From: a virus
Length of the DNA: 28,801 nt
Strand: one strand, 5' to 3'
Virus record (IMG/VR): IMGVR_UViG_3300023179_000389
Coordinates: 1 to 28,801 of that record
Below the pieces are notes generated by a model, which saw nothing but the letters and a program-made list of their open reading frames with translations, had not been told where the DNA came from and made no database searches. Positions 3,433 through 27,774 of the stretch are shown piece by piece (positions within the stretch are counted from its first letter, which is position 1; the number at the start of each line of letters is the position of its first letter). The position numbers were made by a program, and so were the translations under genes.

Positions 3433-6400
3433 TTACTTATTCTTTTTCTTTTTTCCACCTTTATGACCACCCACCACTGCTCTGCCTGCTCTTTGATGTG
3501 CATTTTGAGCTGGTTTTCCAGGACCATTTGTAGTGGATTTTCCTTTTGATCCTTTATCTCCTTGCTTAGGAGCCGAAAGAGCATTGGCATTATCACTCTT
3601 TTCTTCTTGTTTTCTTTCTTTAACTTCCTTAATTCTTTGTTCAACCACTGAGTGACCGGCAATAATTACTTTTTGTCGTCCTGTTGGAACTTGATTTATA
3701 TCAATTCCAGTCCAATTATTAAATGTGGCTCCATAGCTAGTAGTTATTCCTTTTCCGTTACCCATACTAGCTTTAATTAAGTCGTATGCGCCTTCATCCA
3801 CCACATTATGCGGCTCGGCCCAAACATCAGCTTCTTTCCACTCATCAGACCAAGGGCTAATATCAAGCACACCCACATATGTAAATACCGCATATGGATT
3901 AACATTAGAAACTTTACTAGCTTTGGGTTGATCTAACATGACAACATTTTCATATGGTAAAGTATATATTTCGCCCGTTTTTTGATACCATTTCTTAACT
4001 CGTCCTTCTTGTTCTTGATCGAAAGGATTCTCATATATCAATTCGGCTTTTTCAAATAACTCTACATTTATTCTTTGTGGTTGAGGTCGTAGCTCTTGTC
4101 TCTCAGTATCTATACAAGCCCTCGCCCCTGAATCCCAGCTATAATCTCCAGCATCATGAGAGCCGAAGTTATCGACCATAAATCCATTTTTAAATTTGTT
4201 TTGACCCGCTGCATCTGGAATAACCAACTCAGCAGTTTGTTTTTCCAATAATGATAGAGATGTATAATATTCTAAATTTTCTATGCGCTTCTCTAATTTA
4301 CCGATGTCTCTCATGGTATAGCGGCGATTATCAACCATACTAACTGCACAGTCCGAGGGATTTGCAGTATATGGTCTTAGCAACAGATTTGCTATCGTCA
4401 TTCCTGTAGCGGGCTCATCTGGATTTTTAGGATTTATTTCCGGTATACCTCGTTTGACTACAAATGCACCAGATTTGTCCAAATATAGTTTATCTGCACG
4501 AGCCTCATAATGATGATAATCGCATCTAACGGATCCTTTTGGTGGTTCCAAATAAGTTTTAAATCCAGCCGAAACGCCAATTTGTGTTAGACCATCATCA
4601 TCAATCACTCTCGGGCGAAAATCTAAACAGCACGCCAAATCATAAGTTTCGCCACTGGAATTAGTAAACATAGGAATATCTTCATATCTAAGCTCGGCTG
4701 TAGCACCCTCAGTATTATAAGAATCAACAGAAAAATAACCTCCTGTAGATCCTAGAGTATGATCGAAGTAATCAAACTCAACTCTTATTTTTCCAGTGGC
4801 TTTAGGAACACCACTTTTTCTTATAGCACGACCAATATCATAATAATAATCTCTTTGTCCACTATCTAGTGTGTAAAGAGCGGTGACATTTATATGTCCA
4901 TCTGGCAAATCTTCATCGCTACAATCGCTTGGCTCTACACTAAAATTTGGTGATTGAACAACTCTACTAATTCTAAGTACATCGGCCTTTTTTAATGAAA
5001 TAATATTGGCATCGGATTCTACCACAACATACGGCCCACTATATCGATGTTTAAGTTGAGCTGGAAAATATTGAAAAGAACCAGAGCGCAAAATTTTTGT
5101 TCGTTCTAAAGATGCATTATTGGTTTTTTGAATTGTTGCTATAATGTATAGAGTCTTGCTTTCCGAAGATTTTGTGTAAATATTAATGGTATTCCCTACA
5201 ATTTTTAATACGGCAGTATTAGACGGAATAGTAGTGCCATCAGGAGCACCCGCAGCAGGACCATCATAAGACTGTAGCTGCATCCATTGACCATTATTTT
5301 TGTTAATAATGATATAATCATTGATAGAAAATGGTGAAAACAACTCATCTGTAGTTAGAGAAACTGATGTAGTGCCGGTGGTTACCAAATCACTGGCGAC
5401 AACTCTACGAACGGTTAATACAGTATCTTTTGCCGATGGGTTAGGTGCTCCTTGAGATCCACCTCTAACAGTTTTTATCGCATCATGAGGAAGTTTGTAA
5501 ACTAAAGAAGATCCCTCTTGTAATCCTTGGAACTGGACATAAGAAGCCTCAATAACAGACCCCGGCAGTATGCTGCTGGCTCCCGATAAGTAATTAACCA
5601 GTAATTGATTATCATTTTCTGGGTTGGCTGTAACTCTAAAGTAGGATGCGTTTACACCCAACCCTACTCTAACAACATCGTTAGCGATAATAACATTTGT
5701 TTGGTCGTTTTTCCACGATGTTCCTGTGCCGACTAACATATATGTTGATGTTGTGTTTAGTGCACCAGTAACGTCTGTGATACCGTCTTGATTTTTAATT
5801 GAAACTGAACCAAATAATCTGTAATAATCAGGAGAACAATTACACTTAAAGGTTGGATTTCCTGAGTAAACACTCTTTAGTTGTGATAAAGACTTGTTAG
5901 CATCCGGTTTAATATCAAACAAATATAATTTGTATGTAGCGGATGAGGTGGATGACGCCGTAGATAATAGCTCGACAGCCAAAACTCTTGCTGTTCCTAT
6001 TCTTGATGTAGAACTGCTTCCTCCTGGATTATTTTGCTGAGTCTTAGGTGTGTTGTGCAGCTCAATTAAATCATAATTTTGAAGCTCAGGAACTCCTTCT
6101 ACATCAGTCACTATTAAGTATGTTCCAAGAGGTGTATAAAGAGCAGAATTGTTTTGATACTTTAATGTTCTTGCTCTAGGAATATCTACAATCGTTGTGA
6201 ATATTTTCTCAATTTCGTATCCTTTAACGTAGGCTTTTCCTGGTTCAATTTTTAAAGATACTCTATCTCGACAGAGTGTTAAAAAGTCCTGAAAAGTTCC
6301 ATCTTTTTTAGTTGGATACCAAGCATCTTCATATTGTACTCCGCCCGCAAATGGGCCTTCAGCTTCAACATCTTCATTATAAATGGGCAATTCAAAAAAT

Positions 6401-24891: not shown

Positions 24892-24921
24892 TTGACATAT
24901 CCAGATCCACTGTGATATAGT
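24892..24921 (+). promoter_or_regulatory. strong sigma70 promoter with extended -10
   Basis: TTGACA (24892-24897), 18-bp spacer, TATAGT (24916-24921) preceded by TGA (extended -10). The expected +1 is near 24928, followed by a GAGG site and the ATG at 24954. Confidence 0.8.
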
Positions 24922-24953: not shown

Positions 24954-25334
24954 ATGATTAGTCGCAATCAAATGTTGGATTATCTAAAAAACGGACGAGA
25001 AGTAACTGTAGAACTAACCAATGCACAGGTGGTGTCCGTCAAGAGCGAACTAAGACCAATTTCTCACTATCGTTGCGCTACTCTTACTAAGGTAATTGTG
25101 CGAGATGAGGTGCTAGGTTCAATATATTTTGGTGGCTTTAGTGATAAGCTCCGAGATATTAATTATGGTGATAAAGTCTCTCTAAAAGTAAAGGTAACTG
25201 GTGTTGGTGATGCTACAGAAAGGTATCCTGATCCAATTCTTTTTGCTAAGCCTCTTACTCGTAAGGGAGATTCTGTGAAAGTTGAGGCGCCATCCGCTCA
25301 GACTGAAGAGAATGATTTGTCGATTAATGTTTAA
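24954..25334 (+). CDS. hypothetical early protein (126 aa)
   Basis: Read from the promoter at 24892-24921, with a GAGG site 5 nt before the ATG. An N-terminal helix (MISRNQMLDYLKNGREVTVE) is followed by a beta-rich domain (ISHYRCATLTKVIVRDEVLG, IYFGGFSDKLRDINYGDKV, SLKVKVTGVGDATERYPDPI) and an acidic disordered tail. The strands could form an OB-like or SH3-like barrel; this is not certain. No family recognised. Confidence 0.7.
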   Translation: MISRNQMLDYLKNGREVTVELTNAQVVSVKSELRPISHYRCATLTKVIVRDEVLGSIYFGGFSDKLRDINYGDKVSLKVKVTGVGDATERYPDPILFAKPLTRKGDSVKVEAPSAQTEENDLSINV

Positions 25335-25356
25335 TATAATGTAAATGGAGAATAAT

Positions 25357-25635
25357 ATGGTAATGGTAAATACTAATGCAACTGGTGTTTGGGGACGTAA
25401 TGCTGCGGCTCGTCAACAGCTTGTTCGTGAGCTTGTTGAGCACTCTGGTGTTATTGTAAATCGTAAGCAGGTATTGGCTTTTATTGAGTCAACTGGTCGC
25501 ACGATCAATGATGTTTCATGGTTGCTTAATGGTAAGCAGTTTCGTGCATCTCGTGGTCAGTACACACTGCAACCTCTTCTTGCTAGTGATGGTGCTAGTG
25601 CTGCGGAGCCAACTACTGCGTCTAACGTAGCGTAA
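25357..25635 (+). CDS. hypothetical protein, possible winged-helix (92 aa)
   Basis: I use the ATG at 25357 because a GGAG site lies 6 nt upstream; the in-frame ATG at 25345 overlaps that site. After a short leader the product reads GRNAAARQQLVRELVEHSGV, IVNRKQVLAFIESTGRTIND, VSWLLNGKQFRASRGQYTL: three helices followed by a hairpin, like a small winged-helix DNA-binding domain, then an Ala/Ser/Thr-rich tail. A regulator is plausible but unproven. A structured RNA and terminator follow directly. Confidence 0.7.
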   Translation: MVMVNTNATGVWGRNAAARQQLVRELVEHSGVIVNRKQVLAFIESTGRTINDVSWLLNGKQFRASRGQYTLQPLLASDGASAAEPTTASNVA

Positions 25636-25642
25636 ACGAAAA

Positions 25643-25745
25643 GTCGGTTTATTTTAATACATAACCGACAGTGGCATTGCCCCTGGTGCCACAGGTGAAG
25701 GATTAATGTGTCATACCTCAGCATATTAACCACAGGGGCTTTTTT
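25643..25745 (+). ncRNA. possible structured RNA with loop-to-terminator pseudoknot
   Basis: Three hairpins can be drawn: H1 GTCGGTT/AACCGAC (25643-25649 with 25663-25669), H2 GTGGCA/TGCCAC (25671-25676 with 25687-25692), and H3 (25700-25710 with 25722-25731, 10 pairs plus a bulged A). The H2 loop contains GCCCCTG, exactly complementary to CAGGGGC at 25733-25739 just before a T-tract. AGGT after H2 can also pair with ACCT in the H3 loop. Expression and function are unknown; a 3'-UTR-derived RNA or an attenuator for the next gene are both possible. Confidence 0.4.
25679..25745 (+). terminator. rho-independent terminator after the winged-helix-like gene
   Basis: GCCCCTG (25679-25685) pairs with CAGGGGC (25733-25739), enclosing the H3 stem, and is followed by six T (25740-25745). 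It ends 15 nt before the next ATG, so it separates the two transcription units or acts as an attenuator. Confidence 0.6.
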
Positions 25746-25760
25746 CTTTAGGTTTATATT

Positions 25761-25988
25761 ATGAACTATTTGATCAGAGATTCTGAAACTGTTCCAAGAG
25801 CCAAAGATATATTTTACAATGGCGTCAATATAGGTTTTATATACTACAGCAATCTTGATCAGGGGTTTATAGTGCAGCCGGCCTGGGCCAACTATCGTGG
25901 GTTTTTTCATACGTTTGAAAAGGCCTGCGTTGAGCTTATATTTCATTATTGGACTAATTATCATACCGATACCTCCGTTTACTGCTAA
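25761..25988 (+). CDS. hypothetical aromatic-rich protein (75 aa)
   Basis: Product MNYLIRDSETVPRAKDIFYN then VNIGFIYYSNLDQGFIVQPA and FHTFEKACVELIFHYW, rich in Tyr/Phe/Trp, a small alpha/beta protein. No family recognised. Its ATG is 15 nt beyond the terminator T-tract with an AGG site (25750-25752). It converges on the 95-codon minus gene with 2 nt between stops. Confidence 0.6.
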   Translation: MNYLIRDSETVPRAKDIFYNGVNIGFIYYSNLDQGFIVQPAWANYRGFFHTFEKACVELIFHYWTNYHTDTSVYC

Positions 25989-26278: not shown

Positions 26279-26300
26279 AACAACCTCTTTTCTAAAACTT

Positions 26301-26337
26301 GGATCACCCCGGCGTCTTCTTCAGCTCGGGGTGATCC
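26301..26337. repeat. perfect 11-bp inverted repeat
   Basis: GGATCACCCCG (26301-26311) and CGGGGTGATCC (26327-26337) with a 15-nt loop. It lies between the AT-hook gene and the coiled-coil gene on the minus strand. No T-run follows directly, so it could be a weak terminator, processing stem or operator. It is the most GC-rich stem in the window. Confidence 0.6.
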
Positions 26338-26351
26338 TACACATTATCATA

Positions 26352-27525: not shown

Positions 27526-27774
27526 ATGAGTAAAGAATTGAGATTTCCAAAAGCCTTTGATCACTTATCTCTTGAACAGCTTGAGCGATTGCCTACTAAG
27601 GTAGTATTTGTGGAGCATGGTGCCATTTGCGGTGCTATGTATGACAACTTAGATCAAGCTGCGATACGACACAACGGCTTTGTAGGATATGCCGGCCCGT
27701 TTGCAGATAGATTAAACGGTGAGCTTTGTATTAGATTTGAAAGCAAGGAAGCCTGCGATAGGCTAAGTCAATAG
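27526..27774 (+). CDS. hypothetical protein (82 aa)
   Basis: A GAGG site lies in the last codons of the preceding gene, about 10 nt before this ATG. The product has LSLEQLERLPTKVVFVEHGA, then AAIRHNGFVGYAGPFADRL and ELCIRFESKEACDRLS. A compact alpha/beta protein; no known family. Co-transcribed with the 67-codon gene. Confidence 0.65.
   Translation: MSKELRFPKAFDHLSLEQLERLPTKVVFVEHGAICGAMYDNLDQAAIRHNGFVGYAGPFADRLNGELCIRFESKEACDRLSQ

Follow-up and report, generated by a model that had tools for sequence, protein, structure and literature searches.

Intrinsic termination of transcription is the textbook case in which a hairpin is needed at the RNA exit channel of the polymerase. Several riboswitches, including those for preQ1, SAM-II, ZTP and fluoride, place a pseudoknot near the expression platform, some of them with a hairpin in loop 3, and in those that act on transcription the pseudoknot and the terminator compete. 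Three further systems combine a structured RNA with a U-tail, a phage mRNA or a neighbouring small gene. RydC of enterobacteria is a compact pseudoknot with a 3′ poly-U tail, and a mutant predicted to form a short stem-loop and a strong terminator hairpin instead is unstable (PMC4337610). The mRNA of T4 gene 32 carries a pseudoknot that is recognized by its own single-strand-binding product, gp32 (PMC535899). In AbiF RCd22 and the type III antitoxin RNAs, a structured RNA and a terminator stand directly before a small gene (PMC12373285).

Here, we analysed a 28.8-kb stretch of viral DNA from IMG/VR (the window), whose baseplate genes are T4-like and compare with those of Pelagibacter phage HTVC008M (Kyanoviridae) and Synechococcus phage S-H9-2. 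A sequence-only reading had pointed to a hairpin, H2, whose loop (25677-25686, TTGCCCCTGG) is complementary to a terminator arm directly upstream of six T, with the next ATG 15 nt beyond; all the pairings and coordinates that it listed hold (Table 1). It had further proposed that the same bases form either a terminator stem or a pseudoknot. However, both of these consist of the same seven pairs, 25679-25685 with 25733-25739, so the mutually exclusive switch is wrong and helix 2 of the pseudoknot (S2) is itself the terminator stem. Since H2 and S2 are compatible, H2 fits beside S2 as helix 1 (S1) of an H-type pseudoknot. The window fold is a classic one, in which a hairpin loop pairs with a downstream strand, loops L1 and L2 are short (1-2 nt and 0-1 nt), and a further hairpin, H3, lies inside a 40-nt L3. 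The element looks like a transcription stop signal because its last helix directly precedes the U run. It thus shares with intrinsic (Rho-independent) terminators a GC-rich helix that closes an operon and directly precedes a T-tract, whereas the stem here is a pseudoknot helix with an obligatory partner, S1, and closes a long span containing the S1 3′ strand (S1′) rather than the usual short loop. A second loop contact from the same reading, AGGT (25693-25696) with ACCT (25715-25718), can form in the window but, judged by eye, is absent from the other five genomes described below.

Table 1. Coordinates of the operon, of the RNA element in the window and of its counterparts in related contigs.
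Feature	Position	Strand	Remarks
Sigma70-type promoter	window 24892..24921	+	TTGACA-N18-TATAGT, TG before −10; 11/12 consensus; upstream of operon
126-aa protein gene	window 24954..25334	+	tentatively OB-fold-like; AF2 mean pLDDT 82.7
96-aa protein gene	window 25345..25635	+	stop 7 nt 5′ of RNA
H1 hairpin	window 25643-25649 / 25663-25669	+	GTCGGTT / AACCGAC; just 5′ of pseudoknot; different-sequence hairpin there in 6/6 genomes
Element (S1 to T-tract)	window 25671-25745	+	
S1 (H2), 5′ strand	window 25671-25676	+	GTGGCA; pairs with 25687-25692; T25677 can add a U-G pair
S2, 5′ strand	window 25679-25685	+	GCCCCTG; in S1 loop, L1 = TT, L2 = G; pairs with 25733-25739
S1, 3′ strand	window 25687-25692	+	TGCCAC
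H3 hairpin in loop 3	window 25700-25731	+	GG/CC plus TTAATGTGT/GCATATTAA
S2, 3′ strand (terminator arm)	window 25733-25739	+	CAGGGGC; perfect complement of 25679-25685
T-tract	window 25740-25745	+	six T; putative RNA 3′ end
75-aa protein gene	window 25761..25988	+	starts 15 nt past T-tract
Element	L002 8320-8384		96-aa/75-aa gap
Element	L003 1283-1353		96-aa/75-aa gap
Elements, two tandem	L005 1101-1174 and 1196-1260		96-aa/75-aa gap
Elements, two tandem	L007 5321-5384 and 5410-5459		96-aa/75-aa gap
Element	L008 5349-5424		96-aa/75-aa gap

Five further IMG/VR phage contigs (L002, L003, L005, L007 and L008), found through the 96-aa protein and its neighbours, carry the element in the same gene order: 126-aa, 96-aa, RNA, 75-aa, then the convergent 95-aa and 137-aa genes. 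This gives eight elements in six genomes, each between the 96-aa gene and the 75-aa gene; L005 and L007 have tandem copies in which the S1 sequence of the second is unlike that of the first. Viral searches with alignments of the 126-aa, 96-aa, 95-aa and 137-aa proteins returned the same contigs each time, and eight elements are therefore the present limit. All six genomes are metagenomic, with no cultured phage among them; homologues of the 96-aa and 95-aa proteins were not found in cultured phages, and a search of bacterial and archaeal genomes likewise found none. Distant relatives of the 96-aa protein are encoded on L009-L011, one of them a 164-kb contig, and are followed at the corresponding place by an ordinary hairpin and TTTTT, as read by eye; a terminator at this spot is therefore a common feature. 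After this plain hairpin terminator and before the next gene, at about 5225-5320, these contigs carry TATAAATA, a T4-type late promoter box.

The layout S1-L1(1-3)-S2-L2(0-1)-S1′-L3(18-44)-S2′-T-tract is found in all eight elements, and in every one the GC-rich stem is followed by the T-tract 0-2 nt after the S2 3′ strand (S2′). In L002, L003, L005 and L007, another base breaks up the T-tract or stands before it. A hairpin of differing sequence occupies the H3 position in six of the eight, while the sequences of L1, L2 and L3 vary freely. Within the H3 loop region (window 25715-25724), ACCTCAGCAT is common to the window and L008 despite differing surrounding stems. Directly past the 96-aa stop, a 14-base block, TACACTCCTTGATG, is identical in L002 (8274), L005 (1047) and L007 (5277), and the CTCCTT within it complements a Shine-Dalgarno sequence and might serve as the seed of a small RNA.

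We then compared the helices across the elements. Pairing was 1.00 for S1 when strands were matched with their own partners vs 0.48 when they were swapped between elements, 1.00 vs 0.49 for H3 and 0.94 vs 0.43 for H1, while S2 was more conserved in sequence (1.00 vs 0.81), with two-sided changes at three positions across the eight elements; these counts are descriptive because the helices were placed by hand, which was done because MAFFT misaligned the eight elements. Sequence change in S1, H1 and H3 is near-complete, yet the pairing is kept. For an independent count, we aligned the three closest relatives with MAFFT: 98.6% of the cells were paired vs 38-52% when the partner was slid, and seven pairs were changed on both sides: four of the nine pairs in S1, two of the five in H3, and one in S2. 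The opinion that the pairing is more than a simple terminator needs is borne out by these results, as S1, H1 and H3 covary and the pseudoknot is present in all eight elements; the related phages, far from keeping an outer GC stem and T-tract alone, show compensatory changes in H1, H2 (S1) and H3. Taken together, the fold, its place and the T-tract are conserved and the base pairs covary, and the comparison supports selection on the RNA structure.

The nested fold of the window RNA is only moderately unusual on its own (MFE −31.8 kcal/mol, z −2.64). For the window element, we estimated −40.3 kcal/mol for the combined pseudoknot and −30.6 for the nested fold, and in all eight elements the pseudoknot beat the best nested fold by an estimated 6.6-10.7 kcal/mol or so, these energies being stacking sums with one fixed penalty of 9.6 kcal/mol rather than a full pseudoknot model. 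We also wrote a descriptor (S1, L1 1-4, S2, L2 0-1, S1′, L3 8-75, S2′, T-tract), by which the eight real elements score 25.7-32.5; the score is no independent discovery test, because the elements had already been spotted by eye when we wrote the descriptor, and its controls ask only how often unrelated sequence satisfies it. In 16.2 Mb of shuffled strand, there were 0.37 matches per Mb at a score of at least 24 and none at 26 or above. Dinucleotide shuffles of the window intergenic region gave any match in 0 of 3000, and those of the other five intergenic regions in 1-6 of 3000. The combination of a pseudoknot with a T-tract is far beyond chance. Only two matches, scoring 23.3 and 18.3, lay in the remainder of the family contigs. 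The 164-kb distant contig had a single match of 26.4, whose S2 is long and AT-containing, and Pelagibacter phage HTVC008M (147 kb), in which there is no such element, had one of 19.5. Because these scans gave so few matches, the element is site-specific; these phages do not build their terminators this way in general.

Scans for hairpin-terminator patterns missed the element in the window, L003, L008 and L007. The exact H2 DNA pattern was not found in viral contigs. The S2 pattern with its T-tract (GCCCCTG...CAGGGGC plus TTTT) matched at least 119 stretches of viral contigs, mostly without an S1; the few that bear one, such as L156 and L108, are, by rough reckoning, no more than chance would give in a set already selected for S2. 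Both of these are unrelated viral contigs with a pseudoknot and T-tract layout on the minus strand (L108 1313-1373, with a loop-3 hairpin; L156 4232-4286), and their layouts may be chance after the preselection or the same design arisen elsewhere.

The element stands at the end of a small operon of two genes. In the window, L003 and L008, the 126-aa gene has a TTGACA-N17/18-TATAGT promoter with 11/12 matches upstream of it; the box aligns at this position in all six genomes, with weaker −35 and −10 sequences in L002, L005 and L007. Orthologues of the 126-aa protein in the five contigs are 42-56% identical; in Foldseek, its predicted structure best matched 2k50 (RPA-related; E 0.011, TM 0.47-0.52), followed by OB-fold and SSB chains, which weakly suggests an OB-fold-like protein. 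The 96-aa protein, which more likely starts at ATG 25357 with GGAG before it, has orthologues in the five contigs and no Pfam or PHROG match, and its structure model was of low confidence (67.6) and gave no useful match. The 75-aa protein likewise has no Pfam or PHROG match; its orthologues (31-52% identity) are encoded at the same place in the five contigs, starting about 7-77 nt past the last T-tract. In L007, the start codon lies a few bases past the second T-tract, and the GAGGGGG of S2′ might also act as its ribosome-binding site. No plus-strand sigma70-type promoter was found between the T-tract and the 75-aa gene in the window, L003, L007 and L008, by a scan that may miss boxes used by phage-modified polymerases and that in L007 found none at all. 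Antisense ORFs across the region were judged non-coding because tblastx gave no similarity in the RNA interval.

Two side observations concern the neighbourhood. The 75-aa protein shows weak similarity to an 82-aa protein encoded at 27526-27774 (E 8e-4 in a single comparison), and by their sequences the two are possibly members of one small-protein family. Between the minus-strand 137-aa and 95-aa genes, at 26299-26340 of the window, there is an intercistronic hairpin, GGATCACCCCG...CGGGGTGATCC, with counterpart hairpins of other sequence in L002, L003, L005, L007 and L008, which suggests another conserved structured site for termination or processing.

We consider that the element is probably an H-type RNA pseudoknot that acts as an intrinsic terminator, with a knotted, U-tailed 3′ end and limited read-through. 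As the RNA exits the polymerase past the 96-aa gene, H1 and then the S1 hairpin would fold, and the C-rich S2 strand would be presented in the S1 loop. Once its G-rich partner has emerged, S2 would zip up beside S1, immediately 5′ of the U-tract and at the exit channel, and the polymerase would be released at the U-tract. The terminated transcript would run from the conserved sigma70-type promoter and include the OB-fold-like and 96-aa genes, and its knotted, U-tailed 3′ end would be likely to resist 3′ exonucleases, while a minority of polymerases would pass into the 75-aa gene. Termination and its efficiency, like the protection of the 3′ end and the partial read-through, are what we infer from the DNA. 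Points against a pseudoknot terminator are the interrupted or preceded T-tracts in four genomes, the presence of H1, which exceeds what a terminator needs, and the small set of six genomes, all metagenomic.

The compact layout of H1, pseudoknot and U-tail would also suit a small regulatory RNA acting in trans, released from the operon 3′ end or made as its own transcript, in which the pseudoknot would stabilise the RNA and the U-tail would serve as an Hfq-type site, by analogy with RydC. Both are compact pseudoknot RNAs with a U-tail, and the RydC pseudoknot is needed for stability in vivo (PMC4337610); tandem, sequence-divergent copies in two of the six genomes, and the identity of TACACTCCTTGATG past the 96-aa stop in L002, L005 and L007, point the same way. 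However, RydC is trans-acting, Hfq-dependent and has a conserved 5′ seed, whereas for the element no sequence or Rfam match was found, the six genomes have no unpaired seed in common, their loops differ freely, and the RNA has no convincing promoter of its own. A role in trans is unlikely in our judgement, though more probable than the other alternatives below.

It seems improbable that the element is a regulated attenuator, its pseudoknot bound by the OB-fold-like 126-aa product, another protein or some other factor that would determine how many polymerases reach the 75-aa gene. The 75-aa gene is conserved, lies near the T-tract and has no promoter of its own in four of the six genomes. T4 gp32, also a single-strand-binding protein, recognizes a pseudoknot in its own mRNA (PMC535899), and here too a T4-like phage mRNA carries a gene for a possible protein of that kind. 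But the T4 pseudoknot lies upstream of its gene and controls translation, whereas the element lies downstream, after another gene and ending in a T-tract; in all six genomes it is 3′ of both the OB-fold-like and the 96-aa genes, unlike a gp32-type autogenous operator, and the OB-fold assignment is itself weak (E 0.011). Nor does the likeness to a ligand-controlled attenuator, raised by the sequence-only reading, survive the comparison: conserved unpaired ligand-contact bases and alternative folds were not found, the loops vary freely, and in contrast to pseudoknot riboswitches the terminator and the pseudoknot share their pairs, with no conserved ligand-pocket bases and no Rfam match. There is no alternative antiterminator fold, S2 being identical in both proposed states, and a fixed partial read-through requires no regulator.

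A plain hairpin terminator with an incidental H2 pairing is very improbable: programs unable to draw pseudoknots do give the nested fold as their MFE and the distant relatives do have such a hairpin, but the reading is contradicted because S1 covaries, being paired in 8/8 elements with two-sided changes, and L1 and L2 are nearly fixed in length. ToxN-type toxins are far longer than 75 aa. A type III antitoxin RNA, paired with the 75-aa protein as a small toxin, shares the order RNA, terminator, gene and the pseudoknots of ToxIN and AbiF (PMC12373285) but is the least likely explanation of all, as the 75-aa protein has neither a Pfam or PHROG match nor homology to a toxin, no ToxN/AbiQ-type toxin gene lies downstream, there is no abiF motif and no Rfam match to any antitoxin RNA, and the RNA is unrepeated in four of the six genomes.

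The pseudoknot terminator that we favour belongs to a new small RNA family that is unlisted in Rfam, with eight elements in six genomes, a well-supported structure and a putative function; at gathering and relaxed thresholds, Rfam gave no match in the window and its relatives except tRNAs elsewhere. RydC provides a precedent for a U-tailed pseudoknot RNA, and a limited literature search found no description of a pseudoknot terminator, which is weak evidence of absence. More speculatively, and with only a small chance of being right in full, the element may represent a distinct class in which the exit-channel helix forms only by capture from a preformed hairpin loop, so that the stop would be tunable by the phage OB-fold-like protein or a loop-acting antisense RNA, would set downstream expression and would yield a stable small RNA. 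Terminator finders that look only for hairpins, and covariance models restricted to nested pairs, overlook such elements. A site-specific, covarying pseudoknot directly upstream of a U-tract lends itself to asking whether a helix of this type can replace the terminator hairpin, and the effect of loop capture on speed and the protection of the 3′ end are also testable with this element.
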